Below, one piece after another: positions 1,381-22,127 of a stretch of DNA of 32,003 bases. Below the pieces are notes generated by a model that worked only from the letters and a program-made list of their open reading frames with translations, searched no databases and was not told the DNA's origin. The stretch spans positions 1-32,003 of the forward strand of contig CANFJA010000004.1 of NCBI GenBank assembly GCA_947447235.1, written 5' to 3'. The position numbers were made by a program, and so were the translations under genes. Every line of letters starts with the position of its first letter. Positions within the stretch are counted from its first letter, which is position 1. The stretch is from Comamonadaceae bacterium. Lineage in GTDB: Bacteria > Pseudomonadota > Gammaproteobacteria > Burkholderiales > Burkholderiaceae_C.

Positions 1381-1396
1381 TGGCACGGGCTTTGCA
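1381..1396 (+). promoter_or_regulatory. Sigma-54 (-24/-12) promoter of urtABCDE
   Basis: The sequence is TGGCAC-GGGCT-TTGCA, preceded by C. It matches the sigma-54 consensus YTGGCACG-N4-TTGCW at every defined position, with the invariant GG and GC ten bases apart. Transcription should start near 1407, leaving a leader of about 50 bases before the urtA start codon. Together with the NtrC-type dyad upstream this indicates nitrogen-limitation control of urea uptake. Confidence 0.85.
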
Positions 1397-7124: not shown

Positions 7125-7958
7125 TCACATGGCCCAAATACGCGGGGCTGTGTCACCCATCTGCCACAGGCCTCGACGCCAGGCAGCCCACACGGCGCGC
7201 AGCAACTGCTGGGCGGGCTCCACCAAGGGCGAGAGGGTGCGCAGCACCACCACACGCGGGTGTGGCGAGGTGACGCCGGCTTGCACGCCTGCTACCGATT
7301 CGCCCAATGCTTCGCGGGCCAAGCTGAGTGCCAGTTCGCGCCGCTCTCGGTTCAAATCGGCACCGCAGGCAAACACCAGGGTGGCCATGCACCTCTGGCC
7401 TGCCAGCCCCAAGGGGCCATTGAGCAAGCGAAGGTCTTGCGCGTCAATCAGTCCACGCTCTAACCACACACCTTTGATTTCCAGGTGCTGCTGCAGCTGG
7501 CCGTGTTCAAACGGCAAATTGGCGTTGGGCAAGCCCAGTGCGGTGATGTCCCAAGCCATCAACTCGGCGCTGTCTGCCATGTCGAAGCTGGCTTGGTTGA
7601 GCCCATGGCAGCCGTTGTAGGCGATGGTCTCGAGCGGCAACCACTCCAGTCGGCTGTGTTCACCCAATCGCGCGTGAACTTGCTGTGTGGCCAAGCCGTT
7701 TTCGCTGCGGTAAAAACGGGTGGCTCCTGGAGTGGTGATGAGGCCGTGGCTGTGGGCGTCGAGCTGAACCTGGATGTTCAAGGTATCGCCTCCGACCAGG
7801 CCGCCAGGTGGGTGAACCAAGACGTTGTGGCACACACGATCACCCTCCGGATAGAGGCTTTGCAGCACCCGCAAGGGGCCTTGGTGCTCAAAACGAACAA
7901 CCGTGCGAGGTCCCGAGGTGGCATAAGCAAGAGAGAGTTTGGCGTGCCAACCGATCAT
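7125..7958 (-). CDS. ureD: Urease accessory protein UreD
   Basis: Urease maturation chaperone (277 residues) that binds the apo-urease and, with UreF and UreG, delivers nickel. Recognisable UreD segments are LHSL-type RVLQSLYPEG, the conserved VLVHPPGGLVGGDTL, and TTPGATRFYRS. It is on the same strand as ureA-ureB-ureC but is separated from them by the whole urt operon on the opposite strand. Only 27 bases separate its start from the upstream 69-residue membrane-protein gene, so it is probably read from the channel operon promoter near 12500. I see no strong ribosome-binding site. Confidence 0.94.
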   Translation of the reverse strand: MIGWHAKLSLAYATSGPRTVVRFEHQGPLRVLQSLYPEGDRVCHNVLVHPPGGLVGGDTLNIQVQLDAHSHGLITTPGATRFYRSENGLATQQVHARLGEHSRLEWLPLETIAYNGCHGLNQASFDMADSAELMAWDITALGLPNANLPFEHGQLQQHLEIKGVWLERGLIDAQDLRLLNGPLGLAGQRCMATLVFACGADLNRERRELALSLAREALGESVAGVQAGVTSPHPRVVVLRTLSPLVEPAQQLLRAVWAAWRRGLWQMGDTAPRIWAM

Positions 7959-8215: not shown

Positions 8216-9181
8216 TTAGGATTGTTTGTTGGCCGCTGCGATGTGCTTTTCTTCTTCCATCTGTGTGACGATGGATTGCACTTGTTCGTCGGACATGCCG
8301 AGTTTTGCTTGCATCAATTTGAGTTTGGCTTGCTCTTCTTCGGTGACCACACCGTCTGCCAGCGCAGAGCGCACTTCCATTTCATACATGGCCTGGCGTC
8401 GTTCAACTTGCGCGGTGTAAGCCGTTGCGACCACACCGGTCAAGATGGCGGCCAGTGCGATGGACAAGATTTGCGTGAGGATGACCAGCATCGTTCCTAA
8501 AAATGTTACCGGGTCCACATTGCCCCAGCCCGAGACGATGGTGATGACAAACCAGTGCATGGCCGCGGGAATAGAGGGAAAGACGTCGGGCTGCTCATGG
8601 CCTTCGATGATGTAGATCAGCGAGGAAAACAGCAAGCAACTGATGAACAGTAAGAAGACAGCCGAAGAGAAAGAGTCTTTCTCGGCTTTCACGGCGGCCA
8701 CCATGTCTTCAAAGGCACTGTTGTAGCGTGAGAGTTTGAAAATTCGCATCAGCCGAAACATGCGCAGCACGCGAAGATCGGCGCCAGGGAGCAGCAGCTG
8801 CAAGTAAAACGGCACTGTGCTGACAAAGTCGATGATGCCGTAGAAGCTGAATACATATTCCTTGCGACCTTGCCATGCTGTGCCGCCACTGTGGCTGTAT
8901 TTTTCGCTGTACGACCAAACGCGCAACACAAACTCAACCGAGAACACGGCCACGCTGAAGACGTCAAAAGCATGGAACTCGCGTTCGAAAGCCTCATGGA
9001 TTTCAGGTACCGACTCCAAGATGATGCCAATCACATTGGCCACCACCAAAAGGGCGATAAAAATTTCAACAAAGTGGCTGTACTTGTCGGGTACGGCACC
9101 TTCCATGATTTCGTAGGTACGGCGCTTGATACGCTGGAGCATGGAGGGGGTGGGAGCTGCTGGATTCATGATGGCGCTCAC
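8216..9181 (-). CDS. Voltage-gated ion channel superfamily protein with SGWGN filter
   Basis: A six-helix channel subunit of 321 residues from a GTG at 9181 that overlaps the preceding stop (GTGA); the ATG at 9169 is an alternative with GAG upstream. S1 is at about 38-56, S2 71-89 with Glu83, S3 110-128 with Asp118. S4 is at 134-151 with a charge every third residue (RVLRMFRLMRIFK), S5 at 171-192, S6 at 227-254. The filter is TIVSGWGN (214-221), one residue shorter than the K+ channel TxTTVGYGD and with Trp for Tyr and Asn for Asp. A C-terminal module, ADGVVTEEEQ onward, is shared with the two neighbours. Ion selectivity cannot be read from the sequence. It is a paralogue of the next gene upstream. 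Confidence 0.85.
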   Translation of the reverse strand: MSAIMNPAAPTPSMLQRIKRRTYEIMEGAVPDKYSHFVEIFIALLVVANVIGIILESVPEIHEAFEREFHAFDVFSVAVFSVEFVLRVWSYSEKYSHSGGTAWQGRKEYVFSFYGIIDFVSTVPFYLQLLLPGADLRVLRMFRLMRIFKLSRYNSAFEDMVAAVKAEKDSFSSAVFLLFISCLLFSSLIYIIEGHEQPDVFPSIPAAMHWFVITIVSGWGNVDPVTFLGTMLVILTQILSIALAAILTGVVATAYTAQVERRQAMYEMEVRSALADGVVTEEEQAKLKLMQAKLGMSDEQVQSIVTQMEEEKHIAAANKQS

Positions 9182-10089
9182 TCGATGGCAGATGATTTGT
9201 TTTTGGCGCGCAGCATCATGGCTTCAACTTGCTCGTCGGTGAGCCTGTAGTGCGCTTGCAAGCGCTTGAGGGTGTCTTGTTCTTCGTCGGAGACATTGCC
9301 GTCTGAGAACACTTCACGCAACTGTGCTTCAAAGGCGGCTTTCTTACGCGCGACTTGGTTGGAGAAGGCCGACGCCACGATACCCGTCATGATGGCGGCC
9401 ATACACACCCCGAGGAAACCGGTGATGAGTGCAATGGTCTCACCGGCTTTGGTCATGGGTTCGACGTTGCCGTAACCTGAGGTGATGGTGACGATGGCCC
9501 AGTAAATGGAGTGCGGGATGGTGCCAAAAAACTCGGGCTGATGATGGCCTTCGGCGAAGTGCATCAACGATGCAGAAACGATGGTGGCGATGGTGAGTAA
9601 GAAGACGGCCGAACCAAAGGCTTGACGCTCTGAGTAAACGGCATGAAACAAATCTTGCAGGGCGGTGTTGTATTTGGACAGTTTCAAAATCCGCAGCAGT
9701 CGCAGCACACGCAAGATGCGCAAATCAAGTGCGGGGAAGAACATGTGCAAGTAATGCGGCATGGTGGCAAAGAAGTCGACCAAACCAAACGGGCTGAACA
9801 TGTACTGGAATCGACCTTTCCATGAGCCACCGTTCTCGCTGTCGTACTTTGCGCCTAAGGACCAGACGCGGGCGATGTATTCGACCGTGAAGAACATCAC
9901 ACTCCAGAACTCGAGCTCATGGAAAAACTCTTTGAATTCAGCGTGAATTTCAGGGACGGAGTCAAGAATCACCGCCGAGCAGTTGACCAACACCACCACG
10001 GTGATGAGCCACTCGACGTAGCGACTGGCCGTGTGATTGGGCGAGCCGTCTAATATTTCCATCAGAGTGGTCTTGAAACCTTTTGTCAT
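9178..10089 (-). CDS. Voltage-gated ion channel superfamily protein with SGYGN filter
   Basis: A 303-residue six-helix channel. S1 is at about 27-43, S2 60-78 (Glu70), S3 100-118 (Asp105). S4 is at 121-138 with R124, R127, R130, R133 and K136; S5 is at 156-178 and S6 at 218-244. The pore loop reads WAIVTITSGYGNVEP. Aligned with the K+ channel WAVVTMTTVGYGDMYP it lacks one residue before GYG and has Asn in place of Asp. The C-terminus carries SDGNVSDEEQ (262-271) and the following helices, colinear with the other two channels. Its stop overlaps the start of the next channel gene. It lies 111 bases after the two-sensor channel, and that gap contains a strong hairpin. Confidence 0.87.
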   Translation of the reverse strand: MTKGFKTTLMEILDGSPNHTASRYVEWLITVVVLVNCSAVILDSVPEIHAEFKEFFHELEFWSVMFFTVEYIARVWSLGAKYDSENGGSWKGRFQYMFSPFGLVDFFATMPHYLHMFFPALDLRILRVLRLLRILKLSKYNTALQDLFHAVYSERQAFGSAVFLLTIATIVSASLMHFAEGHHQPEFFGTIPHSIYWAIVTITSGYGNVEPMTKAGETIALITGFLGVCMAAIMTGIVASAFSNQVARKKAAFEAQLREVFSDGNVSDEEQDTLKRLQAHYRLTDEQVEAMMLRAKNKSSAIE

Positions 10090-10137
10090 TGCGATGGTCT
10101 AACGAAATAAATGAATGGAAAGAATGAATAAGCAGCA

Positions 10138-10162
10138 GCGGTCACGCGCCACGCGTGACCGC
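10138..10162. repeat. Perfect inverted repeat (hairpin) inside the channel operon
   Basis: Two 11-base arms, GCGGTCACGCG and CGCGTGACCGC, are separated by CCA. No U-tract follows on either strand, so it does not look like a normal intrinsic terminator. It lies between two channel genes and may act in RNA processing, attenuation or as a protein site. A CGGCGGG followed by seven T on the minus strand (10184-10197) has no stem partner. Confidence 0.7.
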
Positions 10163-10200
10163 TTGGTCAGGAGATCTTTAAAAAAACCCGCCGATGTTTA

Positions 10201-11844
10201 TCAAGCCTTACCTTGAATTTTGTGCCACAAATCAAGTTCGTTTGATGACAGTCGTGCATGTTGTTGCGCGGCTTCTTCAAATTTCGCTTCATCGATTTGC
10301 ACGCCGAGTTGCCGAATTTGCCCCAGTAATACTTTGTAGTGTTCCACGGCCAAGGCTGGGTTTTCGGCAATTTTGTGGATCGGCAGTGGATTGCGCTCTT
10401 CGAGCTCATGCTCTTTGATCACGACTTCGATCAATTTGTTCACTTCTTCCACCGTCAGGTGCAATCGTTTCGCTTCTGAACGAATGATGGCCGCTTCATC
10501 ATCACTGATGTGACCATCTTTCAAAATGGCAAACAGGTTGGCTTTCAACTGATCGCGTTCTTTGACCAATTCATCGCTGAAGGCCGAGGCCAACAAAGCC
10601 GCTGGGATAGCAAAGATACCAATGCCCATCAGCGCCAAGATACTGGTCATGGCGCGTCCCATCGGTGTGACGGGTGAAATGTCGCCATAGCCCACAGATG
10701 CCAAAGTAATTACCGCCCAGTAGATAGAGGTCGGGATGTTTTCAAACTTCTCGGGCTGCGCATCGTATTCAAACAAGTAGCCCAAGCTCGCGGTCAAGAC
10801 CAAGAGCAGCATCATGATGAAGGTGGCGGCTCCCATGACCGGCCATTCGCGCACGACGACCTTCACCAGCACGGCGGTGGCATCGCTGCCGCGTGTGAGT
10901 TTGAGCAGTCGCGCCAAACGGAAGACCCGCAAGAAGCGCAAGTCGATCAAATGGTGCAAAAACACTTCCAAGAAGAAGGGCAAGATCGCCAAAAAGTCGA
11001 TGAATGTGGATGGTGACTTGGCTTGTTTGAGTCGTCCAAGGAACGAGCCTTTGTAACCTGGCTCTTCTACGCAAGAGTAAATGCGCATGCAATATTCAAC
11101 GGTGAAGATGGCAACCGCTACCGCATCTAGGATCACAAATTGCAGATGCAAGATGTAGTTGATGCTCTTGACCGATTCCAAAATCACGGCCAGCACAGAC
11201 AAGATCACCCACACACCAATGAACACTTCAAAAATGTGTTGCATGGTGCCGCCGTAGTTGCTTGGGAACACCAAGGCGTGCACTTTTTGGCGGAAGGTTC
11301 GGTTTTTGTTGAGCTCTTTGAACTCGGAGATGGCGGGAATCAAGACGCGGAACAGCTTCATGATTCGCAACAGTCGCAGGAATCGCAACACGCGCAGATC
11401 AATGGGAATGAAGGCTTGCAAATAGAAAGGCGCAACAGCCAGGAAGTCAATGATGGCAAACGGGCTGGTCACGAAGCCCAAGCGTGCGTTTTTGCGGGAT
11501 TTGAATTCTTCGTCTTCAGGCGCTAAATAAAAGCGCAGGACATATTCAATGGTGAACACGGCCACTGAGAAGATGTCGAAGAATTCAAACCACATACGGT
11601 AGGGCTCGAACACAGCAGGCACGTGCTCGAACATCAACGTGAACAAGTTGATGATGATCAGGTAGCTGATCCACTTGTCTAAGTCTTTTTGAAAGTTACC
11701 GGGAATATTGGGATCAAGCAACCATGAGTACAACCACTTGCGCATGGGCAAATTGCGGTCGATGTTGGCCTCATGGTCTTGGCCCAGGATGGCTTGAACG
11801 TCGAGATCTTCTAAGAATTTATCTTGTTTGGATTGTGTTTGCAT
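10201..11844 (-). CDS. Channel protein with two voltage-sensor domains and one K+-type pore
   Basis: A 547-residue membrane protein. Sensor 1 has S1 at about 57-73, S2 86-107 (Glu100), S3 124-143 (Asp133) and S4 148-168 (R151, R154, R157, R160, K163, R166). Sensor 2 has S1 at 205-223, S2 235-256 (Glu250), S3 280-298 (Asp283) and S4 301-317 (R303, R306, R309, R312, K315). Only sensor 2 is followed by S5 (335-358), a canonical filter TLASVGYGD (380-388) and S6 (397-423). The tail carries KDGHISDDEA (442-451), the module shared by the neighbours, plus about 70 further residues. GAGG lies six bases before the ATG. The 4+6 helix layout is unlike a typical Kv channel (6) or a two-pore channel (6+6). 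It starts 8 bases after the stop of the 196-residue protein gene. Confidence 0.88.
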   Translation of the reverse strand: MQTQSKQDKFLEDLDVQAILGQDHEANIDRNLPMRKWLYSWLLDPNIPGNFQKDLDKWISYLIIINLFTLMFEHVPAVFEPYRMWFEFFDIFSVAVFTIEYVLRFYLAPEDEEFKSRKNARLGFVTSPFAIIDFLAVAPFYLQAFIPIDLRVLRFLRLLRIMKLFRVLIPAISEFKELNKNRTFRQKVHALVFPSNYGGTMQHIFEVFIGVWVILSVLAVILESVKSINYILHLQFVILDAVAVAIFTVEYCMRIYSCVEEPGYKGSFLGRLKQAKSPSTFIDFLAILPFFLEVFLHHLIDLRFLRVFRLARLLKLTRGSDATAVLVKVVVREWPVMGAATFIMMLLLVLTASLGYLFEYDAQPEKFENIPTSIYWAVITLASVGYGDISPVTPMGRAMTSILALMGIGIFAIPAALLASAFSDELVKERDQLKANLFAILKDGHISDDEAAIIRSEAKRLHLTVEEVNKLIEVVIKEHELEERNPLPIHKIAENPALAVEHYKVLLGQIRQLGVQIDEAKFEEAAQQHARLSSNELDLWHKIQGKA

Positions 11845-11852
11845 GGCAGACC

Positions 11853-12443
11853 TCAGAATTCAAATTCAGCAACTTTGATGGCGTAGCCACCTTTGTCACA
11901 TACCGACAAGCGCAGCTGCATCTTGTAGTCAATGGCGTCGGTTTCAACCAACTGCGACGCTACAAAGGGCGTGGCTGAACCAGGAGGGGTGGGCATGAGA
12001 TCTTCCAACAAGATTGCGCCCATCAAGGTGCGGTCTGAAGGAACGCAAGCCGCCACGAAGTGGGGGGGCGCGTTGAAGAAGGGATTGATTTGGTCTTTCA
12101 ATTCCGTTGAGGTGCTCATGATGTGAGCCAAACATGCGCCCCACGTGCCGGGTGTGTCCGCCTTGGCATTAGCCGGTGGCTTGACGCCACCTTGACAAGC
12201 AGGATGCTGAGTGTCGGATTCAAAGCGTGTGGTGCCGGTTTCGGTCAACCAAGCCACCCATGCCTCGCCATTGCTTTTGCTGGTTTCGGTTTTGATGGCC
12301 TCTTTGTAGTTGACAACACCCAACAGGGTGACAGCAATCACAACCAAAACCAAAAAGGCCATAAAGAGTTTGTCGGTCGAGCTGGGGCCGAGTGGTCGGC
12401 TCTCGGATGCGTGGTCTGTTGAAGATGCCATGGGGATCGCCAT
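11853..12443 (-). CDS. Membrane-anchored Cys-containing protein of unknown function, first in channel operon
   Basis: A 196-residue protein I do not recognise. A Ser-rich cytoplasmic N-terminus precedes one hydrophobic helix (KLFMAFLVLVVIAVTLLGVVNY, about residues 25-46). The rest is predicted extracytoplasmic and contains four cysteines in the contexts HPACQGG, GACLAH, AACVPS and SVCDKGG, compatible with two disulfides. The C-terminus ends KVAEFEF. Neither the ATG at 12443 nor the in-frame ATG at 12431 has a clear ribosome-binding site. It is the promoter-proximal gene and ends eight bases before the two-sensor channel gene. An extracytoplasmic sensor or channel partner is a reasonable guess, no more. 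Confidence 0.7.
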   Translation of the reverse strand: MAIPMASSTDHASESRPLGPSSTDKLFMAFLVLVVIAVTLLGVVNYKEAIKTETSKSNGEAWVAWLTETGTTRFESDTQHPACQGGVKPPANAKADTPGTWGACLAHIMSTSTELKDQINPFFNAPPHFVAACVPSDRTLMGAILLEDLMPTPPGSATPFVASQLVETDAIDYKMQLRLSVCDKGGYAIKVAEFEF

Positions 12444-12501
12444 TCAAGTAAAGGAAATCCGACGCGTCTAGCGAGGTAGAGAGCCGGGCGAAAGGGTTTT
12501 G

Positions 12502-12532
12502 ATGATATTCGCAAATTTTGCGAATTTGTCAA
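12502..12532 (-). promoter_or_regulatory. Candidate MerR-type promoter with spacer dyad for the channel operon
   Basis: On the minus strand a perfect -35 TTGACA (12532-12527) and a -10 TATCAT (12507-12502) are 19 bases apart. That is too long for a normal sigma-70 spacer. The spacer is filled by a perfect 19-base dyad (12507-12525; arms ATTCGCAAA and TTTGCGAAT around one base), centred within one base of the spacer centre. This geometry is the hallmark of promoters activated by MerR-family regulators. Transcription would start near 12494. No merR gene is in the window. Confidence 0.6.
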
Positions 12533-12584
12533 TTTAACGCTTGAAATTGCATGTACTCACATGGAGCAGTGAGTAGTTAAGGAT

Positions 12585-12616
12585 TCAAAAAACTGTTTTA
12601 TCAAACAGTTTTTTGA
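12585..12616. terminator. Bidirectional intrinsic terminator after the ABC importer operon
   Basis: A perfect 14-bp stem, TCAAAAAACTGTTT with AAACAGTTTTTTGA, closes a 4-base loop. The A/T tracts give a U-run on both strands. It lies 11 bases past the stop of the permease gene on the minus strand and insulates that operon from the channel operon promoter. Confidence 0.8.
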
Positions 12617-12627
12617 TGTGTGAAATA

Positions 12628-13395
12628 TCAGTGATTTTGCGAGCTGCGGTGAGCCCACGCCGTGGTGTGTTTTTCGACGTAACTGAACAACTCATACATC
12701 ACCATGGCCATGGCACCCACCACAACCAGACCGGCAAAGGCCAGGCCCATTTGCATGGCGGATCCTGCAGAAATCAGCAAATAGCCAATGCCTTCGTTGG
12801 CAGCGGTCATCTCTGACACCGTGGTGCCCACAAAGGCCAGTGTGATGGCCACTTTGAGGGACCCATAAAAGTAGGGCATGGAGCGTGGCAGGCCCACTTT
12901 GACCAGCACGTCCCAGCGCTTGGCACCCAAAACGCGCAACACGTCTTCCAGCTCAGGCTCCAAGGTGGCCAAGCCTGTGGCAATGTTGACCATGATGGGA
13001 AAGAAGCTGATCAAAAAAGCGGTCAAGATGGCAGGTCCCACACCGATGCCAAACCACACCACCAAGATGGGCACAAAGGCTGCTTTTGGCAAGGCGTTGA
13101 AACCCGTCATCAAGGGGTAGACCGCGGCGTAAGCAGTGCGTGAGCTGCCAACGACAAAGCCCAACAACACGCCCACCACAATGGCAATGCCAAAACCCGC
13201 CATGGTGACCCAGTAGGTGCGCCAAGCATGGGCGGCAATGACCTCGCGAAACTCCACCATTTGTTCCCAAATCCGCAATGGGCTTGGAAAGACAAATTCA
13301 GAGACAGAAAAAACAGTGCACAAGCCTTGCCAAGAGATCAGGGTGAGGATCAGCAGCGCCCATGGCGACCAACGTTCGATTTGTTTTTGATTCAT
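12628..13395 (-). CDS. NitT/TauT-family ABC transporter permease
   Basis: Inner-membrane permease of the SsuC/TauC/NrtB type, 255 residues, about six transmembrane segments. The EAA-like cytoplasmic loop is visible as LEDVLRVLGAKRWDVLVKVGLPRSMPYF near residues 150-177. Typical family segments are FPSPLRIWEQM near the N-terminus and GFNALPKAAFVPILVVWFG. It is the last gene of a binding protein, ATPase, permease operon and is followed by a strong terminator. The substrate is not evident from the permease itself. Confidence 0.9.
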   Translation of the reverse strand: MNQKQIERWSPWALLILTLISWQGLCTVFSVSEFVFPSPLRIWEQMVEFREVIAAHAWRTYWVTMAGFGIAIVVGVLLGFVVGSSRTAYAAVYPLMTGFNALPKAAFVPILVVWFGIGVGPAILTAFLISFFPIMVNIATGLATLEPELEDVLRVLGAKRWDVLVKVGLPRSMPYFYGSLKVAITLAFVGTTVSEMTAANEGIGYLLISAGSAMQMGLAFAGLVVVGAMAMVMYELFSYVEKHTTAWAHRSSQNH

Positions 13396-13414
13396 GGTGC
13401 TTGATTCTTGTTGT

Positions 13415-14239
13415 TTATGGCTCTATGACTGCGGTGGTTTTTCGAATGGCGCCGATGTGCCCGCGCAGTTCATGGACGATGTCGGTGAACTCGGGCGTGT
13501 AAGTCACCTCCAAGTCGCGCGGACGGGGCAGATCGATGTTGCGTTTGACAACAAAGCGACCGGGACTCTTGCTCATCACATACACCGTGTCGGCCAAGAA
13601 AACCGATTCACGCAAGTCATGTGTGACCAAGATGACATTGAACTTTTGCTCTGTCCATAAGTCGCGCAAGGTGCACCAGAGTTCTTCACGTGTGAAGGCG
13701 TCGAGTGCGCCAAACGGTTCGTCAAGCAGCAGCATCTTGGGTTCATGGATCAGCGCACGGCAAATGCTGGCACGCTGTTGCATGCCGCCTGAGAGCTGCC
13801 AAGGAAATTTGCGCTCATACCCGCCCAAGCCGACCGTCTGCAAAAGCTGGATGGCGCGTGCCTCGTACTCTGCCTTTTTGGCTTTGAAGTTGGAACGGTA
13901 GGGTTCCACAATTTCCAGCGGCAGCAACACGTTGTCAAGCGTGGTGCGCCAAGGCAGCAGCGATGAGGCTTGAAAAGCCATGCCACTGATTTTGAGAGGA
14001 CCGTTGACTGCTTGACCGTCGACCAAGATCTCGCCTCGGCTTGGTTTGCGAAGGCCTGTGGTGAGCTTCATGAAGGTAGATTTGCCACAGCCCGAGGGGC
14101 CCACAATGGCGATGAACTCGCCTTGCTTGACCTGTAGGTTGATGTCTTCTACCGCGAAGTGGTTTTGTGCCAGCAGCTCGTCGTTGTAGGCGAGCCAGAC
14201 ATTTTTGAATTCGACGAAGTTGTCAGCAGAGGCAGTCAT
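13415..14239 (-). CDS. NitT/TauT-family ABC transporter ATP-binding protein
   Basis: Cytoplasmic ATPase (SsuB/TauB/NrtD type), 274 residues. Walker A is GPSGCGKST (about 47-55), the Q-loop is MAFQASSLLPWRT, the signature is LSGGMQQRASICRAL, Walker B is MLLLDEPFGALD, and the H-loop is VILVTHDLRESV. It lies 14 bases after the binding-protein gene and 19 before the permease gene. It energises import by the neighbouring permease. Confidence 0.92.
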   Translation of the reverse strand: MTASADNFVEFKNVWLAYNDELLAQNHFAVEDINLQVKQGEFIAIVGPSGCGKSTFMKLTTGLRKPSRGEILVDGQAVNGPLKISGMAFQASSLLPWRTTLDNVLLPLEIVEPYRSNFKAKKAEYEARAIQLLQTVGLGGYERKFPWQLSGGMQQRASICRALIHEPKMLLLDEPFGALDAFTREELWCTLRDLWTEQKFNVILVTHDLRESVFLADTVYVMSKSPGRFVVKRNIDLPRPRDLEVTYTPEFTDIVHELRGHIGAIRKTTAVIEP

Positions 14240-14253
14240 TGGGCGGTGATCGC

Positions 14254-15288
14254 TTATTTCTTAGGCTTGGGTAAAACGTCGAGTTCTTTGGCGGTGGGCA
14301 AGAAACTGCCATTCCAGATGATGTCGGCATTGACGCGGTTTTTGGTGTTGAACGCATCAGACACCTGCGACGCCATCAGCGACAAGCGCGGGCCTTTGAT
14401 TTGACCAAAGCCTTCTGCGCGCGCGTCTGGGCTGTTGATCACGGTGTCGATGGCCAGTTGCAAGCGACGTGTTTCAAGTTCGGTGTTGATGATGCCGTCG
14501 CGTGCCTTGACCGTTTCAATGGCCGCTTTGGGATCGGCAATCACATCTTTCATGCCTTTGGCGAATGCCGACAAGAAGGCCTTGATGGCTGCAGGATTCT
14601 CTTTGATCAACTTGGGACTGGCGATGATCGCGTTGCCATACAGCTTGACGCCGTAGTCGGGGTATTGCAAGACGACCACATCTTCGGCTTTGACGCCTCG
14701 GGCTTCGATGTTGAGCAGGGATGTGAAGGTGAAGCCTGTGATGGCGTCTACGTCACCACGAACCAGCATGGTTTCACGCAAAGGTGGATCCATCGCTGTC
14801 CAGGCCACGTTGCCGATGTTGTTGGCCTTGGCGAAGATGGGAAACGCCCGACGACCTGCGTCAAAGACGGGGGCACCGAGTTTTTTACCCGCCAAGTCAG
14901 CAGGCGTTTTGATGCCTGATTTTTTCAGGGCCATCACCGAGGCTGGGGTGTTGTTGTAGACCATCATCACGGCCACAGGCTTGTTGGGCGCGTCTGGGTT
15001 GTTGGCGTTGAATTCCATCAAGGCAGCCAAGTCAGCAAAACCCATGTCGTAGGTGCCTGAAGCCACACGCGTCACAGCGCCACCCGAACCGTTGCCGGCA
15101 TCGACGGTCACGTCGAGTTTGGCGTCTTTGAAATAACCTTTGGCCACAGGCACCAAAAACAAGGCGGCGGGGCCTTCAAAGCGCCAGTCGAGTTGGAACT
15201 TGATGGGGGTGGTTTGGGCTTGCGCCAAACCAAAGCTGGCTGTCAAGGCCAAGCTGAGGCCGGTTTTGAGAAATGTGCGTTTGATCAT
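14254..15288 (-). CDS. NMT1/THI5-like ABC transporter substrate-binding protein
   Basis: Periplasmic binding protein, 344 residues. The start is ATG 15288, with AGGAG upstream and a Sec signal peptide at residues 1-24 (MIKRTFLKTGLSLALTASFG, ending AQA). The mature part opens TPIKFQLDWRFEGPAALFLV and has the NMT1/SsuA-like segments GYFKDAKLDVTVDAGNGSG and DMGFADLAALMEFN. The substrate is unknown. Relatives bind pyrimidines such as thiamin precursors, sulfonates, nitrate or nucleobase-like compounds. The sigma-54/NtrC promoter and the adjacent purine permease favour a nitrogen source. Confidence 0.88.
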   Translation of the reverse strand: MIKRTFLKTGLSLALTASFGLAQAQTTPIKFQLDWRFEGPAALFLVPVAKGYFKDAKLDVTVDAGNGSGGAVTRVASGTYDMGFADLAALMEFNANNPDAPNKPVAVMMVYNNTPASVMALKKSGIKTPADLAGKKLGAPVFDAGRRAFPIFAKANNIGNVAWTAMDPPLRETMLVRGDVDAITGFTFTSLLNIEARGVKAEDVVVLQYPDYGVKLYGNAIIASPKLIKENPAAIKAFLSAFAKGMKDVIADPKAAIETVKARDGIINTELETRRLQLAIDTVINSPDARAEGFGQIKGPRLSLMASQVSDAFNTKNRVNADIIWNGSFLPTAKELDVLPKPKK

Positions 15289-15339
15289 GGGGATGCTCCT
15301 GTTAGGCGAATTGGTGAACACAGTTGTATGCACAGGTCT

Positions 15340-15355
15340 TGCAATAAGGGTGCCA
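15340..15355 (-). promoter_or_regulatory. Sigma-54 (-24/-12) promoter of the NitT/TauT-type importer
   Basis: On the minus strand the sequence is C then TGGCAC-CCTTA-TTGCA. It matches the -24 and -12 consensus elements exactly, with correct spacing. The predicted start of transcription is near 15329, about 40 bases before the start codon of the binding-protein gene. It is the second sigma-54 promoter in the window and resembles the one before urtA. Confidence 0.83.
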
Positions 15356-15456
15356 GTCGCAAAATCACAGACCGGTGGCTCATGGCTAAATTGTGCGCGA
15401 ATTTGGGGCGGATTTTGGGTGTGTTGATCCAAAACAAGGGTGAACCCTTGAACTGC

Positions 15457-15471
15457 GCACTCTGGCGGTGC
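15457..15471 (-). promoter_or_regulatory. Candidate NtrC binding site upstream of the importer operon
   Basis: The dyad is GCAC, seven bases, GTGC, the same core as the site before urtA. It lies about 130-140 bases upstream of the predicted sigma-54 transcription start, a normal enhancer position. Binding by NtrC is inferred from sequence only. Confidence 0.55.
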
Positions 15472-15534
15472 CTTTGGCGGTGCGTGCCATGCTCCACCAC
15501 GAGGCATAAATACGCGGGCAAGAGAAGTTTTCGC

Positions 15535-15562
15535 AAAGAAAAGGCCTGCATAGGCAGGCCTT
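15535..15562 (-). terminator. Intrinsic terminator of the purine permease gene
   Basis: The arms AAGGCCTGC and GCAGGCCTT (15541-15562) form a perfect 9-bp stem with a 4-base loop. On the minus strand TTTTCTTTG follows. It begins about 42 bases after the permease stop codon. Confidence 0.8.
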
Positions 15563-15603
15563 CGGTGCATGCAAAATGCTTGTGCAGTTTGCATGAAGCG
15601 TGA

Positions 15604-17091
15604 TCAGTGGCTGTCGGCTTGGCGTGCGGCTTGTATGGCTGCAGCGTCATCGTCGTGGGCACCATTGAAGAACAAGTTCAAGAGAACAGCCGAGAGCGAT
15701 GCCAACAAAATGCCGGACTCGATCAGCGGGTGCAGGTTGTGCGGCATCCATTGTTTGAAGTTAGGTGCGATCAGCGGAATCATGCCGATGCCAACGGAGA
15801 TGGCGACCACCAAGCTGTTGAAGCGGTTGTTTTTGAAGTCCACCCCGCCCAAGATGCGAATGCCGGTGGCAGCTACCATGCCAAACATCACCAACCCTGC
15901 GCCACCCAGAACCACGGTGGGCAGCGACTCGACCAGAGCAGCCATTTTGGGAATCACGCCCAAGATGATCAAGATGATGCCACCGGCGACGCAGACAAAA
16001 CGGCTCTTCACGCCCGTGACCGCAACGAGTCCGACGTTTTGCGAGAAGCTGGTGTAGGGGAAGGTGTTGAAAATGCCGCCAATCAAGGTGCCCAAGCCAT
16101 CTGTGCGCAGACCACGCGTCAAAGCAGCGCGGTCCACATGACGGTCGGTCATTTCACCCAAGGCCAAGAACATGCCGGTGGACTCGATCATCACCACAAT
16201 CATCACCAGCGTCATGGTCAGGATGAGCACCGGGTCAAACACGGGCATGCCAAATTGGAAAGGCAGCACCACATCAAACCAAGCAGCTTTGCCCACCTTG
16301 TCGAAATTCATCAGGCCCATGGCTGTTGCCACGACTCCGCCCAAGATGATGCCCAGCAACACAGAAATATTGGCCATGAAGCCGCGTGCGTATTTGGCGA
16401 TTAATAAGATCGAGACGAGCACCAGCGCGGCTATGCCGACGCCGGTGAGGTCGGCGTATTTGGGATTGGGCAGTTTGGCTACCAGTGCCAAATCTTTGGG
16501 CACGGGCGGCAGGATGGCGCCCGGCGCAGAGGCTGCTGCCGCCGCATCTGCCAGCCATTTCGCGTGTTCGGGATTCACGATGGACGGTGCCGTGGGGCCA
16601 AAGGGGTTGCCGAAAATCCAGTTGATGCCAATTCGCATCAGGCTGATGCCGATGACGGCAATGATGGTGCCTGTCACCACAGGCGGAAAGAAGCGCAGCA
16701 GTCGGCTGACGATGGGTGCGATCAACATGGAGATCACGCCTGCACCAATGATGGCGCCAAAGATGAGTTGAGCCCCCGCATCGCCAGGGTTGGTGTTGGC
16801 CATCGACACCATCGGTGCCACGGCTGCAAAGGTCACGCCCATCATCACCGGCAGACGGATGCCGAACCATTGCGTTGCGCCCCAAGATTGAATGAGGGTG
16901 ACCAAGCCGCACACAAACAAGTCGGCCGAGATCAGCATCGCCACTTGCTCCGGGCTGAGCTTTAACGCGCGGCCCACGATGAGGGGCACAGCCACGGCCC
17001 CAGCGTACATCACCAGCACATGCTGAAGCCCTAGCGCGGCCAGTTTGCCGGTTGGCAAACGTTCGTCGACGGGATGGGTGGTTTGTGTCAT
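15604..17091 (-). CDS. NCS2-family nucleobase permease, xanthine/uric acid type
   Basis: Inner-membrane proton-coupled purine permease, 495 residues, about 12-14 hydrophobic segments. The ATG at 17091 has AGGAG six bases upstream. The NCS2 signature reads FSQNVGLVAVTGVKSR. The QN pair is typical of xanthine/uric acid carriers, whereas uracil carriers have EN or similar. The conserved acidic motif is VVMIESTGMFLALGEMTDR. A short Asp-rich end (GAHDDDAAA) follows the last helix. It is transcribed alone toward a terminator, and a palindrome overlaps its promoter region. Purine as a nitrogen source would fit the neighbouring urea genes. Confidence 0.9.
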   Translation of the reverse strand: MTQTTHPVDERLPTGKLAALGLQHVLVMYAGAVAVPLIVGRALKLSPEQVAMLISADLFVCGLVTLIQSWGATQWFGIRLPVMMGVTFAAVAPMVSMANTNPGDAGAQLIFGAIIGAGVISMLIAPIVSRLLRFFPPVVTGTIIAVIGISLMRIGINWIFGNPFGPTAPSIVNPEHAKWLADAAAAASAPGAILPPVPKDLALVAKLPNPKYADLTGVGIAALVLVSILLIAKYARGFMANISVLLGIILGGVVATAMGLMNFDKVGKAAWFDVVLPFQFGMPVFDPVLILTMTLVMIVVMIESTGMFLALGEMTDRHVDRAALTRGLRTDGLGTLIGGIFNTFPYTSFSQNVGLVAVTGVKSRFVCVAGGIILIILGVIPKMAALVESLPTVVLGGAGLVMFGMVAATGIRILGGVDFKNNRFNSLVVAISVGIGMIPLIAPNFKQWMPHNLHPLIESGILLASLSAVLLNLFFNGAHDDDAAAIQAARQADSH

Positions 17092-17119
17092 GAGAACTCC
17101 TGAAGGGTCATTGTTCAAC

Positions 17120-17135
17120 AAACTGTATACAGTTT
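17120..17135. promoter_or_regulatory. 16-base palindrome, likely operator of the purine permease gene
   Basis: The sequence AAACTGTATACAGTTT is perfectly self-complementary and lies 29 bases upstream of the permease start. TGTATACA cores are common in GntR-family operators. A second palindrome, TTTGCATGCAAA, overlaps it (17134-17145). The region is shared with the divergent secretion operon, so either or both could be controlled. Confidence 0.55.
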
Positions 17136-17252
17136 TGCATGCAAATAATCTAGCGGGAAACCCTTATCGGAGTTTCAATATTTGCGATGGGTTGTCGCCC
17201 CATCACGGCTTAGCCCTGCCTATTCTTGAATTTTTTTCAGGGGCCCAAAGTC

Positions 17253-19427
17253 ATGGATGAACTCGAGCTGCTCAAGTTGTATTGCCAGTTGCACCATCAG
17301 CACATAGAGCTTGATCAACTGAAACACCAATTCGGCCTCTACGACGCGCACAGTCAGCCCATGTCGTTGGGCATAGGTGAGGTGTTGAAAGCCCTGCAGA
17401 GTTTGGCGTTTGATGCAACGTTAAAACACGGCAATACGCGTGCCCTGCGAACGGCCACATGGCCCGCATTGATGCCGGTCAGAGACGGGGGCCTGATGTT
17501 GGTTGGAAAAGTGGATGTCAGGCATCGTGATGGCCCCTGTGTTGTCCTTCAAAAAACAGGGCAAAGCATGCCCGACCAAGTCACGCTGCAAGAGTTTGAG
17601 CAACTTTTTGCAGGGGTCTGGATCGACGCCAAGCCAATGGCCAAAAGACATCTTCAGAGTGCCTCTGCCAATGCAGAACAAGAGGTATTTGGTTTTTCAT
17701 GGTTTTGGTCTTCTTTGAAGAAATACAAGTCGCTGATGGCGGAGGTATTGATCGCGTCGCTGTTTTTACAGATCATTGCCTTGGTCACACCCTTGATCTT
17801 TCAGGGGGTGATCGACAAAGTACTGCCCCACCGAACGCTGTCTACTTTGGACGTGATGGTGTTCGCCTTGCTAGGTGTCAGTATTTTTGAAGTGGCCTTA
17901 GGTGCCATGCGGCACTACTTGCTGAGTCACACCACCAGCCGGGTGGATGTGGAATTGGGCAGCAAATTGTTTCAGCACCTGTTGCACTTGCCATTGACGT
18001 ATTTTGAGAGCCGACGCAGTGCAGACACCGTGGCGCGGGTGCGCGAGTTAGACAACGCCCGCAACTTTCTCACAGGCCAGGCGCTGACATGCTGGCTGGA
18101 TGTTCTATTTGTGCTGGTCTATTTGGCGGTGATGCTGTACTACAGCGTGGCGTTGACCATGGTGGTGATGGCTGCATTGCCGATTTTTTTGGGTGCTTCA
18201 GCAGCGATCACCCCTGTGCTGAGAAAAAAGCTGGAAGATAAATTTACTTTAGGTGCCGACAACCAAGCTTATTTGGTGGAGACGGTGACATCGATCGAGA
18301 CACTCAAGAGCCTTGCGGTTGAACCCCAATGGCAACGCGAGTGGGATAGGCGGCTGTCTGACTATGTGCAGGCCTCATTTGATGGGGGGCATTTGGGAAA
18401 CACGACCCATCAGTTCATCAACTTGACGAGCAAGCTATTGACAGTTGCCCTTTTGTGGCTAGGTGCACGTTTGGTGATTGAGGGTGACTTGACAGTCGGT
18501 GGTTTGATTGCCTTCAACATGCTCAGCGGGAGAGTGAACGCGCCTATTTTGAAGCTGTCTTCTTTGTGGCAAGAGTTTACGCAAATGAAGGTCAGCATCA
18601 AACGTTTGGGCGACATCATGAACGCCCCTAGCGAACCCACATTCAAAGCCAATCGATTTTTGCCTACTGCCTTTCAAGGGCGACTCACGTTTGAGCATGT
18701 TGGGTTTCGTTACGCCGCGCAAGCGCCCGAAGTGTTGAGTGACTTGAGTTTTGATGTTCAAGCGGGTGAGGTGATTGGCATTGTGGGCGTTTCTGGCGCT
18801 GGCAAGACGACCATGATGCGTTTGATTCAACGTCTTTATACCCCTGAACACGGACGCATTTTGATCGATGGTTTGGACTTGAGTTTGGTAGACGCCTCGT
18901 GGTTGCGCCGTCAAATCGGTGTGGTGGGTCAAGACACCCTGTTGTTTAACCGAAGTATCAAAGACAACATCGCATTAGCCGATGCCAGCTTGAGCATGGC
19001 GGCCATCACCGAAGCTGCAGAGTTATCCGGTGCGCATGAATTTATTGTGCAGTTGCCTCAGGGCTATGACACGCTCATCGGAGAGCGGGGCGGAAAACTC
19101 AGCGGCGGGCAGCGTGCGCGCATGGCCATTGCGCGGGCCTTGGTCAGAAGTCCGAAGGTGTTGTTGTTTGACGAAGCCACCGCCTCTTTGGACTATGAGA
19201 GCGAGCGCTTGATCCACGACAACATGGCCGCGATGGCGCAGGGCCGAACAGTGTTCATCGTTGCGCACCGGTTATCTACCTTGCGGTTGGCAGACCGAAT
19301 TTTGGTGTTGGATCAAGGGCGTTTGATGGAGACCGGATCCCACAGTCATTTGATCAAGCAAGAGGGACGCTATGCGGCCTTGTACCAAGCGCACCAAGTG
19401 TTGGAGCGCGAAGGAGTTGCCGCATGA
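17253..19427 (+). CDS. Type I secretion system ABC transporter with inactive C39-like domain
   Basis: Exporter ATPase/permease of the HlyB/LapB group, 724 residues. The start is ATG 17253, with AGGGG upstream; an upstream TTG has no support. Residues 1-125 resemble a C39 peptidase domain but lack the catalytic-cysteine motif, as in RTX-type exporters that do not cleave a leader. About six transmembrane helices lie between residues 155 and 440. The ATPase has Walker A GVSGAGKTT (about 512-520), signature LSGGQRARMAIARAL (616 onward), Walker B VLLFDEATASLD and H-loop IVAHRLSTL. The next gene starts inside its stop (ATGA). Confidence 0.93.
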   Translation: MDELELLKLYCQLHHQHIELDQLKHQFGLYDAHSQPMSLGIGEVLKALQSLAFDATLKHGNTRALRTATWPALMPVRDGGLMLVGKVDVRHRDGPCVVLQKTGQSMPDQVTLQEFEQLFAGVWIDAKPMAKRHLQSASANAEQEVFGFSWFWSSLKKYKSLMAEVLIASLFLQIIALVTPLIFQGVIDKVLPHRTLSTLDVMVFALLGVSIFEVALGAMRHYLLSHTTSRVDVELGSKLFQHLLHLPLTYFESRRSADTVARVRELDNARNFLTGQALTCWLDVLFVLVYLAVMLYYSVALTMVVMAALPIFLGASAAITPVLRKKLEDKFTLGADNQAYLVETVTSIETLKSLAVEPQWQREWDRRLSDYVQASFDGGHLGNTTHQFINLTSKLLTVALLWLGARLVIEGDLTVGGLIAFNMLSGRVNAPILKLSSLWQEFTQMKVSIKRLGDIMNAPSEPTFKANRFLPTAFQGRLTFEHVGFRYAAQAPEVLSDLSFDVQAGEVIGIVGVSGAGKTTMMRLIQRLYTPEHGRILIDGLDLSLVDASWLRRQIGVVGQDTLLFNRSIKDNIALADASLSMAAITEAAELSGAHEFIVQLPQGYDTLIGERGGKLSGGQRARMAIARALVRSPKVLLFDEATASLDYESERLIHDNMAAMAQGRTVFIVAHRLSTLRLADRILVLDQGRLMETGSHSHLIKQEGRYAALYQAHQVLEREGVAA

Positions 19428-20755
19428 CTTCAAGCAAACACATTCATAAGCTGAGCAACCCCTTCGCAAGCGCTGCACTGGCAATGCAGCAGCAACCACC
19501 GCCGTATGTGTTGCGGATGGTGTCATTGAGCGTCTGTGCCATGGCGGCTTTGAGTTTGCTGTTTGCCAGCTGTTCAACCATGGACATCGTGGTTTCTGCG
19601 CAAGGTCGGGTCATCCCGTCGGGCAAAAGCAAAGTGGTGCAGCCCTTAGAGGCTGGTTTGGTCCGTTCTGTGCATGTACGCGATGGCCAGTGGGTTCGCG
19701 AGGGGGATACCTTGTTGGCGCTAGACCCAACCCAAACAGGCGCAGACCGCGAGCGCGTTCAGCGTGAATATTGGGAGGCGCAAACCGATGTATTGCGCTT
19801 TAAAGCGCAGTTGGAGGGGAAGTTTCGGTTGGCTGCATCTCAAGACATTCCGTCAGACATTGTGGCGAATCAATCGGTCATGCTGGAAGGACGCTTGGCA
19901 GAGCAGCGCGCCAAATTGGCGGGCTTGGAGGCGGACTTGGTCAAGCGACGGTCTGATGCAGATGCGATTCAAAGCAATATCACCCAATTGCGCAACAGTT
20001 TGCCCTTGATTCAACAGAAGCATCAAATGCGTGAGGCGTTATCTAAGACGGGACACATTGCACAAACCAGCGTGATAGATGCCAAGCTTGAGTTGATCAC
20101 CGCAGAGAAGGATTTGGCAGTTCAAACGAACCGCCTGAGCGAGTCATTGGCCAATTACCAAGCAGCTGTTGAGCAGCGCACGCAAGCGCTCTCTGAATTC
20201 AAATCGAGGACGAGCACTGAGCTGGCCGAGGCCTTGAAAAAACGAGATGTGATTCAACAAGAGTTCATCAAAACCACCCAACGGCATGCGCAACAAACCT
20301 TGCGCGCACCCATTGACGGCATCGTTCAGCAATTGGCTGTCTCCACGGTGGGTGGCGTGGTGACTGCCGCGCAGCCTTTGCTGACACTCGTGCCCGACAA
20401 CGCTCCGCTCGAGCTCGAAGCTCAAGTGATGAATCGCGACATCGGCCATGTCCATGTGGGGCAGCGCGTGATCAACAAGGTTGAGACTTACGACTTCACA
20501 CGCTACGGATTTATCGATGGTGAAGTTTTGTGGGTAGGAACAGATGCCATACAAGACCCTAAGCTGGGTTTGGTCTATCCGGTCCGAATCAAGCTCGCAC
20601 AAACGCAAACACCCCATGCAGTGAATGGCCGTAAGGGGCTGGTGACTGCAGGCATGAATGTGACCGCAGACATTCGCACCGATGAACGCCGCATGATTTC
20701 GTATTTGCTGGCCCCGATGTTGCGCTACCAACAGGAGTCCTTGCGTGAAAGATAA
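19424..20755 (+). CDS. Type I secretion membrane-fusion protein, HlyD family
   Basis: Periplasmic adaptor of 443 residues linking the ABC exporter to the outer-membrane channel. One transmembrane helix (about 29-49, LRMVSLSVCAMAALSLLFAS) is followed by the family hallmark MDIVVSAQGRVIPSGKSKVV. The lipoyl half-motif EAGLVRSVHVRDGQWVREGD comes next, then a long coiled-coil region at about 100-290, and the second lipoyl part LRAPIDGIVQQLAVSTVGGV. The start overlaps the ABC gene stop by four bases. Confidence 0.93.
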   Translation: MTSSKHIHKLSNPFASAALAMQQQPPPYVLRMVSLSVCAMAALSLLFASCSTMDIVVSAQGRVIPSGKSKVVQPLEAGLVRSVHVRDGQWVREGDTLLALDPTQTGADRERVQREYWEAQTDVLRFKAQLEGKFRLAASQDIPSDIVANQSVMLEGRLAEQRAKLAGLEADLVKRRSDADAIQSNITQLRNSLPLIQQKHQMREALSKTGHIAQTSVIDAKLELITAEKDLAVQTNRLSESLANYQAAVEQRTQALSEFKSRTSTELAEALKKRDVIQQEFIKTTQRHAQQTLRAPIDGIVQQLAVSTVGGVVTAAQPLLTLVPDNAPLELEAQVMNRDIGHVHVGQRVINKVETYDFTRYGFIDGEVLWVGTDAIQDPKLGLVYPVRIKLAQTQTPHAVNGRKGLVTAGMNVTADIRTDERRMISYLLAPMLRYQQESLRER

Positions 20756-22127
20756 ATTAATTCGCCTGTTTTTGAGTAGCAATCTATTGAGCTTTTTTGG
20801 CGTGAGTCACGCCCAGTCTTTGATGGATGTCTACCAAAAAGCAAGACTTCAAGACACGCAATTTCTTGCTGCGCGCAGCGCGTTAGACGCTGCACTTGAA
20901 AAGATACCCCAAGCGCGTGCCGGCTTGTTGCCCGTAGTCAGTGTGGCAGCCAATAAAAATTTTCAAATGGGTGAAGGATTCTTCTCTGGAGAGGGTTATT
21001 CGGGTGTGCCAAATGTGTCACGTGAAGTTCGTGCATGGAGTTGGACGGCTCAACTCACGCAACCTGTTTTTCGCCTGAGCAGTTGGGCTGCGTATACCCA
21101 AGCTGATGCTCAAGTGGTACAAGCGAAAGAGCAATTTTTCTTGGCTGAACAAGAGCTCATCGTTCGGACAGCGCAGATTTATTTTGATCTGCAATTGGCC
21201 ATGCAAAGTGTTCATGTCTCAGACGCACAACTCGAAGCAATGCGCGAACAGCTGATATTGGCAGAACGCACGTTTGATGTGGGAACGGGGACGATCACCG
21301 ACGTGCATGAGGCCAAAGCCAAGCAAGCCTTGAGTTTTGCGCAACGTGCCTCGGCGGTGAACGATTTGACAACCAGGCAGGCTGAATTGGAAAAGCTAGT
21401 GGGCCAATACATGCAACTGGCTCCCACAGAGTTGGTCAAGAGTCTGCCTGAGCTGCAACCCAAGCATGTCAGCGACTGGTTGTCGCTGGCGATGAATCAG
21501 AGTCCACAAATTCGAATTCAGCAAGCAACCTTGAGCGTTGCCCAAAACGAGGTCGCCAAAAACATGGCAGCGCATGCACCGACCTTGGATTTGGTGGCCC
21601 ATCGGATGGCCAACTACAACTCGGGTTCTTTGAGCACGCCAGCTGAATTGTCGGCCCGCGTGAACGCTCACCAGGCAGGCGTGCAACTCAGCATTCCGTT
21701 GTTTTCGGGGGGGGCAACCCAATCCAAAGTGCGTGAGGCCGTGGCTTTAGAGCAAAAAGCCAAAGATGAACTTGTCGGAGCCCAACGCACGACGAGCAGC
21801 TTGGTTAGGCAAACATTTGCAGGCGCTATCAACGGGCAAGCTCAGGTGGATGCATTAGAAGCTGCTGTTGAAGCCAGTCAGAACTCTGTGGCATCGAACA
21901 AAATTGGCTTCAAGATTGGGACGCGCATCAACCCCGATGTGCTCAACGCCGAGCAGCAGCTCTACAGCACGCTGCGCGATTTGAATAAAGCACGCGTGGA
22001 AGTAGTGATGCAGCGCCTGAAGCTCAAAGCAGCAACGGGTTCGTTGAGCCCAGACGATGTGTTGCATCTTGATCGAATATTGGTTCCCACTGTCCTAGAG
22101 ACGCAGCTTGCTGCGTTCCACAGGTAG
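20745..22127 (+). CDS. TolC-family outer-membrane efflux/secretion channel
   Basis: Outer-membrane channel of a type I secretion apparatus, 460 residues. The start is a GTG at 20745 that overlaps the end of the HlyD gene by 11 bases and has AGGAG (20733-20737) seven bases upstream. A signal peptide spans about residues 1-23, ending SHA. TolC repeats are seen in the paired SLMDVYQKARLQDTQFLAAR segment and in the later LSLAMNQSPQIRIQQATL; the C-terminal KIGFKIGTRINPDVLNAEQ is a family hallmark. It converges on argG with eight bases between them. Confidence 0.92.
   Translation: MKDKLIRLFLSSNLLSFFGVSHAQSLMDVYQKARLQDTQFLAARSALDAALEKIPQARAGLLPVVSVAANKNFQMGEGFFSGEGYSGVPNVSREVRAWSWTAQLTQPVFRLSSWAAYTQADAQVVQAKEQFFLAEQELIVRTAQIYFDLQLAMQSVHVSDAQLEAMREQLILAERTFDVGTGTITDVHEAKAKQALSFAQRASAVNDLTTRQAELEKLVGQYMQLAPTELVKSLPELQPKHVSDWLSLAMNQSPQIRIQQATLSVAQNEVAKNMAAHAPTLDLVAHRMANYNSGSLSTPAELSARVNAHQAGVQLSIPLFSGGATQSKVREAVALEQKAKDELVGAQRTTSSLVRQTFAGAINGQAQVDALEAAVEASQNSVASNKIGFKIGTRINPDVLNAEQQLYSTLRDLNKARVEVVMQRLKLKAATGSLSPDDVLHLDRILVPTVLETQLAAFHR

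Follow-up and report, generated by a model that had tools for sequence, protein, structure and literature searches.

The window, meaning here the whole stretch of 32,003 nucleotides that was analysed, comes from a freshwater bacterium of the Limnohabitans group and carries on its minus strand a three-gene operon, abcSAP, for an ABC importer of the NMT1/THI5 type, whose position (12628-15288) and gene order had been given correctly in the earlier note. The features on which the argument draws are these:

14254-15288, minus strand: abcS, NMT1/THI5-like substrate-binding protein of 344 aa (PF09084, 121 bits, cut-off 20.5)
13415-14239, minus strand: abcA, ABC transporter ATP-binding protein of 274 aa (PF00005, 114 bits)
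12628-13395, minus strand: abcP, ABC transporter permease of 255 aa (PF00528, 84 bits)
12585-12616, minus strand: hairpin with a T-rich stem just after abcP, the likely operon terminator (minus-strand fold, -15.7 kcal/mol)
15296-15300, minus strand: AGGAG ribosome-binding site before the abcS ATG, read from the sequence
15340-15355, minus strand: sigma-54 -24/-12 promoter element TGGCACCCTTATTGCA, exact consensus with no mismatch
15388-15405, minus strand: conserved element CAAATTCGCGCACAATTT between dyad and promoter, from an alignment of 20 upstream regions
15457-15471, no strand assigned: NtrC-type dyad (upstream activating sequence) GCACTCTGGCGGTGC, GCAC-N7-GTGC, exact; on the minus strand GCACC-N5-AGTGC
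15542-15561, minus strand: terminator-like hairpin between the xanthine permease gene and abcSAP, AGGCCTGC-CTAT-GCAGGCCT followed by a T run
15604-17121, minus strand: NCS2 xanthine/purine permease, a separate transcription unit (TIGR03173 pbuX, 512.6 bits, cut-off 414.15)
1381-1396, plus strand: comparison sigma-54 element before urtA, exact consensus
1253-1267, no strand assigned: comparison NtrC-type dyad before urtA, exact

Binding protein, permease and ATPase all score above the cut-offs of their families and are encoded in one operon, with gaps of 14 and 19 bases between the genes. Orthologues of abcSAP occur in 123 of 201 sampled genomes of the family, nearly all at 66-90% identity; one genome (G162, L175:3079-4135) has abcS split into two overlapping open reading frames, likely a decaying copy or an assembly error. 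The AlphaFold2 model of abcS (46 near-identical orthologues) was of poor quality and did not permit an analysis of the pocket (mean pLDDT 48.7, pTM 0.47). The adjoining gene, previously described as a purine permease, passes the xanthine permease model TIGR03173, and in the window it is this gene only that adjoins abcSAP, the urate genes not being adjacent. Beside the permease there is a type I secretion operon (17226-22127; HlyB, HlyD and TolC families), at the place where several relatives carry urate-degradation genes. Downstream of the importer, three ion-channel genes in a row (8216-11844) are conserved in many relatives, with a PF00520 match in 10201-11844, while the other two match potassium-channel models more weakly. 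The gene for the urease accessory protein UreD (7125-7958) is convergent with urtE and ties the urea importer to urease.

The element upstream of abcS conforms to TGGCAC-N5-TTGCA, with GG and GC at the fixed spacing, at 15355-15340, just as the earlier note had claimed, and it starts 67 bases from the abcS ATG (15288). The whole window contains two exact elements of this kind, the other being that of urtA (1381-1396), and the 1.77 Mb assembly contains five. Given that terminators flank the operon and that a scan of 12400-15700 returned no sigma-70-type promoter (1.8 expected by chance), the sigma-54 element is the sole recognisable promoter of abcSAP. Among 80 orthologous loci, mostly from Limnohabitans and uncultured Comamonadaceae, an element of the TGGCACCCTTATTGCA type is found at -95 to -40 of the start codon without mismatch in 28 and with at most one mismatch in 65, leaving 15 near orthologues without a site at that threshold; three scrambled or reversed controls gave no match in the same regions. 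Several cultured isolates of Limnohabitans have the operon behind this promoter. The -24/-12 bases form a conserved block in the alignment of 20 near-relative upstream regions. Among broader family members, 31 of 61 keep the element with at most one mismatch and the remaining half lack it. Counted over 61 genomes of the genus, the sigma-54 motif occurs 502 times, compared to 110 for the reversed pattern.

The dyad proposed to lie about 130 bases further upstream is indeed there, and exact, although not at that distance: it is placed 116 bp upstream of the sigma-54 element, start-to-start, and the corresponding distance at urtA is 129. The proposed likeness to the urtA layout holds, the window having just two exact dyads (15457-15471, and 1253-1267 before urtA) and just two exact element/dyad pairs, arranged alike. 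Not one of 300 simulated windows, matched to the dinucleotide make-up of the real one, contained an exact sigma-54 site with an exact dyad 60-200 bases upstream, against two such pairs observed; taken singly, the two motifs arose at 0.22 (sigma-54 site) and 0.36 (fuller dyad) copies per simulated window. Of the 80 orthologous loci, 16 have an exact dyad and 43 have one with at most a single mismatch, as compared with at most 3 and 10, respectively, for five control dyads. In the alignment, several near relatives show another dyad some 18 bases downstream of the first.

Between dyad and promoter, the element CAAATTCGCGCACAATTT is a possible site for a second regulator. It is retained with up to three mismatches in 20 of the 80 loci, every one in the nearest clade, and was not seen to recur upstream of other genes of the cluster. 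A GntR-type palindrome, TTGTATACAA, lies between the NtrC dyads and the promoter, some 131 to 81 bases before the start of abcS, in 18 of the 80 loci (L018-L024, L027-L029, L031, L032, L035, L040, L049, L053, L069, L083), with about one expected by chance in the whole set; a search of the window for it found none. The urate cluster includes a gene for a GntR regulator, so that these sister loci may be under a second, substrate-specific control.

Across Burkholderiaceae the importer adjoins urate-degradation genes and often directly precedes a nucleobase-type deaminase. In 40 family genomes, picked for long contigs and not at random, and with neighbour genes called by codon usage, the conserved neighbours comprise an M20 hydrolase (23 genomes), a fusion of OHCU decarboxylase and allantoate amidohydrolase (UraD-AllC, 22), a GntR regulator (22), the allantoinase PuuE (20), hydroxyisourate hydrolase (HIUase, 16), the urate oxidase PuuD (12), a CDA-fold deaminase (11) and a xanthine permease (10). 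Relatives thus have urate-degradation enzymes alongside the importer, the neighbourhood sought as the mark of an importer for purine catabolism, and this placement fits the earlier suggestion of a nitrogen compound, possibly a nucleobase or its breakdown product, as ligand. PuuE is encoded in 117 of the 123 importer-bearing genomes, compared to 47 of the 78 others (hand-compiled counts; Fisher p 7e-10, relatedness ignored); importer and PuuE share a contig in 74 of the 106 genomes for which the PuuE position was listed, and are no more than 30 kb apart in 67 of these 74. The genome of the window itself has on another contig (C156) hydroxyisourate hydrolase, a GntR regulator, PuuE and, at the contig end, the start of UraD; PuuD is present as well. 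The guanine deaminase model TIGR02967 stays below its cut-off in this genome, where absences mean little because the assembly is 65% complete and in 206 contigs. The M20 hydrolase (family c3), of ArgE/DapE type, lies between UraD-AllC and the importer (e.g., about 1.4 kb upstream of abcS in L139); the gene is found also in 45 of 80 Limnohabitans-type loci, many of them truncated, and its product, below every curated cut-off among the models compared, could act on a ureide.

Close homologues of the CDA-fold deaminase are encoded in 59 genomes, 51 of which also have the importer; in 36 of these 51 the deaminase gene follows the importer on the same strand, no more than about 5 kb further downstream, and in L176 the stop of the permease gene overlaps its start. 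Among PDB entries, those named CMP/dCMP deaminase and guanine deaminase are nearest to the linked deaminase. No close homologue was found in the Limnohabitans genomes examined. Several genomes additionally encode a paralogous NMT1 binding protein, about 41% identical to abcS (L176:6537-10647; L177:10685-14735; L178:4749-8545), beside genes that resemble isopenicillin-N-synthase-type dioxygenases, with a Rieske-type oxygenase added in L178; the paralogue in L176 is paired with a second nucleobase-type deaminase, 41% identical to the first. These loci have the appearance of an oxidative uptake-and-deamination cluster. That the second importer has a deaminase of its own points to a paired function of importer and deaminase.

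Collectively, promoter and neighbourhood make it probable that abcSAP is a high-affinity importer, driven by NtrC and sigma-54, of a purine-derived nitrogen compound, be it a nucleobase, urate or a ureide. Among these ligands we slightly prefer a nucleobase that carries an amino group (guanine, for example) to urate or allantoin. One genome (G090, 99% complete) has the importer, the deaminase, UreD and urt genes and lacks PuuE, PuuD and XdhB. The urate route is therefore not obligatory for the importer, and at least in this genome a ligand that yields ammonium by deamination would be favoured. In a broader formulation, which we consider as apt to be wrong as right, the importer would be dedicated to the high-affinity uptake of a purine base, urate or a ureide, would be widespread in the Burkholderiaceae under an NtrC switch, and would often be coupled to a nucleobase deaminase and to urea and urease genes.

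Alternatively, the importer could be nitrogen-controlled and have its ligand outside purine catabolism, in a pyrimidine or amino-N-heterocycle (cytosine, isocytosine, an aminopyrimidine) from which the neighbouring deaminase strips ammonium. The closest solved relatives of abcS are aminopyrimidine binders of the THI5/ThiY type, the deaminase stays with the importer in G090, which has no PuuE, PuuD or XdhB, and the second importer comes with its own deaminase. However, the strong linkage is to urate genes and xanthine permease, no pyrimidine-degradation genes were identified beside the importer, and a close deaminase homologue is missing from the Limnohabitans genomes examined; we therefore judge this explanation unlikely, while giving it precedence over the other alternatives.

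Less likely still is an explanation by which the abcSAP promoter is served not by NtrC but by another enhancer-binding protein, for example a flagellar one. The remaining three exact sigma-54 sites of the assembly lie just upstream of flhA (G000 contig C69:5395-5410; L171:1396), roughly 25 bases before a fliO-like gene (C133:3395-3410; L172:1896) and inside murJ, the gene names being read off the translated sequence, and C88 encodes a second protein of the NtrC family. Copies of the flhA motif, TGGCACATCGATTGCT, are found across the genus, which suggests sigma-54-dependent flagellar genes. A sigma-54 site alone is not nitrogen-specific in this genome. To that extent the earlier reading of the promoter as the mark of a nitrogen scavenger, although supported, needs qualification; in its favour are conservation far beyond chance and the presence of both regulators, RpoN (PF04552, 215.6 bits) and NtrC (TIGR01818, 673.3 bits, cut-off 558.6; the frame includes a neighbour). 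Given the exact sites near flagellar genes, the nitrogen argument rests on the dyad, its conservation, the parallel with urtA and the gene neighbourhood; it is the GCAC-N7-GTGC dyad, conserved upstream of the abcS promoter and common to urtA, that speaks against a different activator. From these elements we infer NtrC occupancy and nitrogen-dependent expression.

Import of a thiamine precursor (HMP/FAMP) in the manner of ThiXYZ is very improbable: the best solved-structure matches of abcS are THI5, THI13 and a FAMP-binding protein, but the similarity is weak and at the level of the fold family, the window has no TPP riboswitch (its Rfam RNAs are three tRNAs only), the conserved neighbours include no identifiable thiamine genes, and a nitrogen promoter is ill-suited to such a role. 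A sulfonate, taurine or nitrate importer, at which the family name might hint, has an equally slight chance, the matches to SsuA, TauA and nitrate-importer models being weak and far below cut-off for the binding protein (SsuA, TIGR01728, 53.5 vs 163.5; taurine, TIGR01729, 33 vs 304.25 bits) as well as for permease (TIGR01183, 82.3 vs 209) and ATPase (TIGR01184, 197.6 vs 291.8 bits), and no sulfur-assimilation genes having been identified among the conserved neighbours.

Uptake of a purine-derived compound under NtrC control, the preferred reading, can be understood as the following sequence. When nitrogen is short, phosphorylated NtrC would bind the dyad at 15457-15471, probably together with weaker tandem sites, and would loop to the sigma-54 holoenzyme at 15355-15340 to bring about abcSAP transcription. 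The importer would then take up a nucleobase (e.g., guanine), urate or a ureide (e.g., allantoin), and the imported compound may feed the urate-allantoin-urea route, the genes for which lie beside the importer in relatives and partly elsewhere in the genome of the window. The urea importer urtABCDE would be under the same control. If true, an importer class modelled as sulfonate- or nitrate-like would serve instead to scavenge organic nitrogen in Limnohabitans, a freshwater genus, and in much of the Burkholderiaceae, and purine-derived nitrogen, released for example by lysis or grazing, would constitute a high-affinity nitrogen source for these bacteria. The purine reading also yields a short, testable list of ligands.

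In Burkholderia cenocepacia H111, urt (urea import), urease, the urate-oxidase cluster and xdhAB (xanthine dehydrogenase) are all activated by NtrC (PMC5491218), and in betaproteobacteria the regulon of NtrC extends to the uptake of nitrogen compounds (PMC5343134). By this comparison abcSAP appears to be an importer that fits the known pattern of NtrC-regulated nitrogen scavenging, itself previously without an assigned ligand; no paper assigning one was found in the open-access literature. No abcSAP orthologue was identified in the H111 regulon. The closest parallel within the window, the urtABCDE promoter, has the same layout, in which an exact -24/-12 element is preceded by an NtrC-type dyad at a distance of about 115-130 bp, whereas the importer it serves belongs to another family, has another ligand and comprises five genes instead of three. 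With the NCS2 xanthine/urate permeases (pbuX type), one of which is encoded next to it, abcSAP probably shares a nutrient class; these are, however, single-protein symporters, transcribed separately and with no dependence on a binding protein. The NMT1/THI5-like importers (THI5, ThiY, SsuA, TauA) have in common with abcSAP the PF09084 binding protein and the standard permease and ATPase, but abcSAP falls below every curated equivalog cut-off and is distinguished by the urate-degradation genes that adjoin it in relatives.
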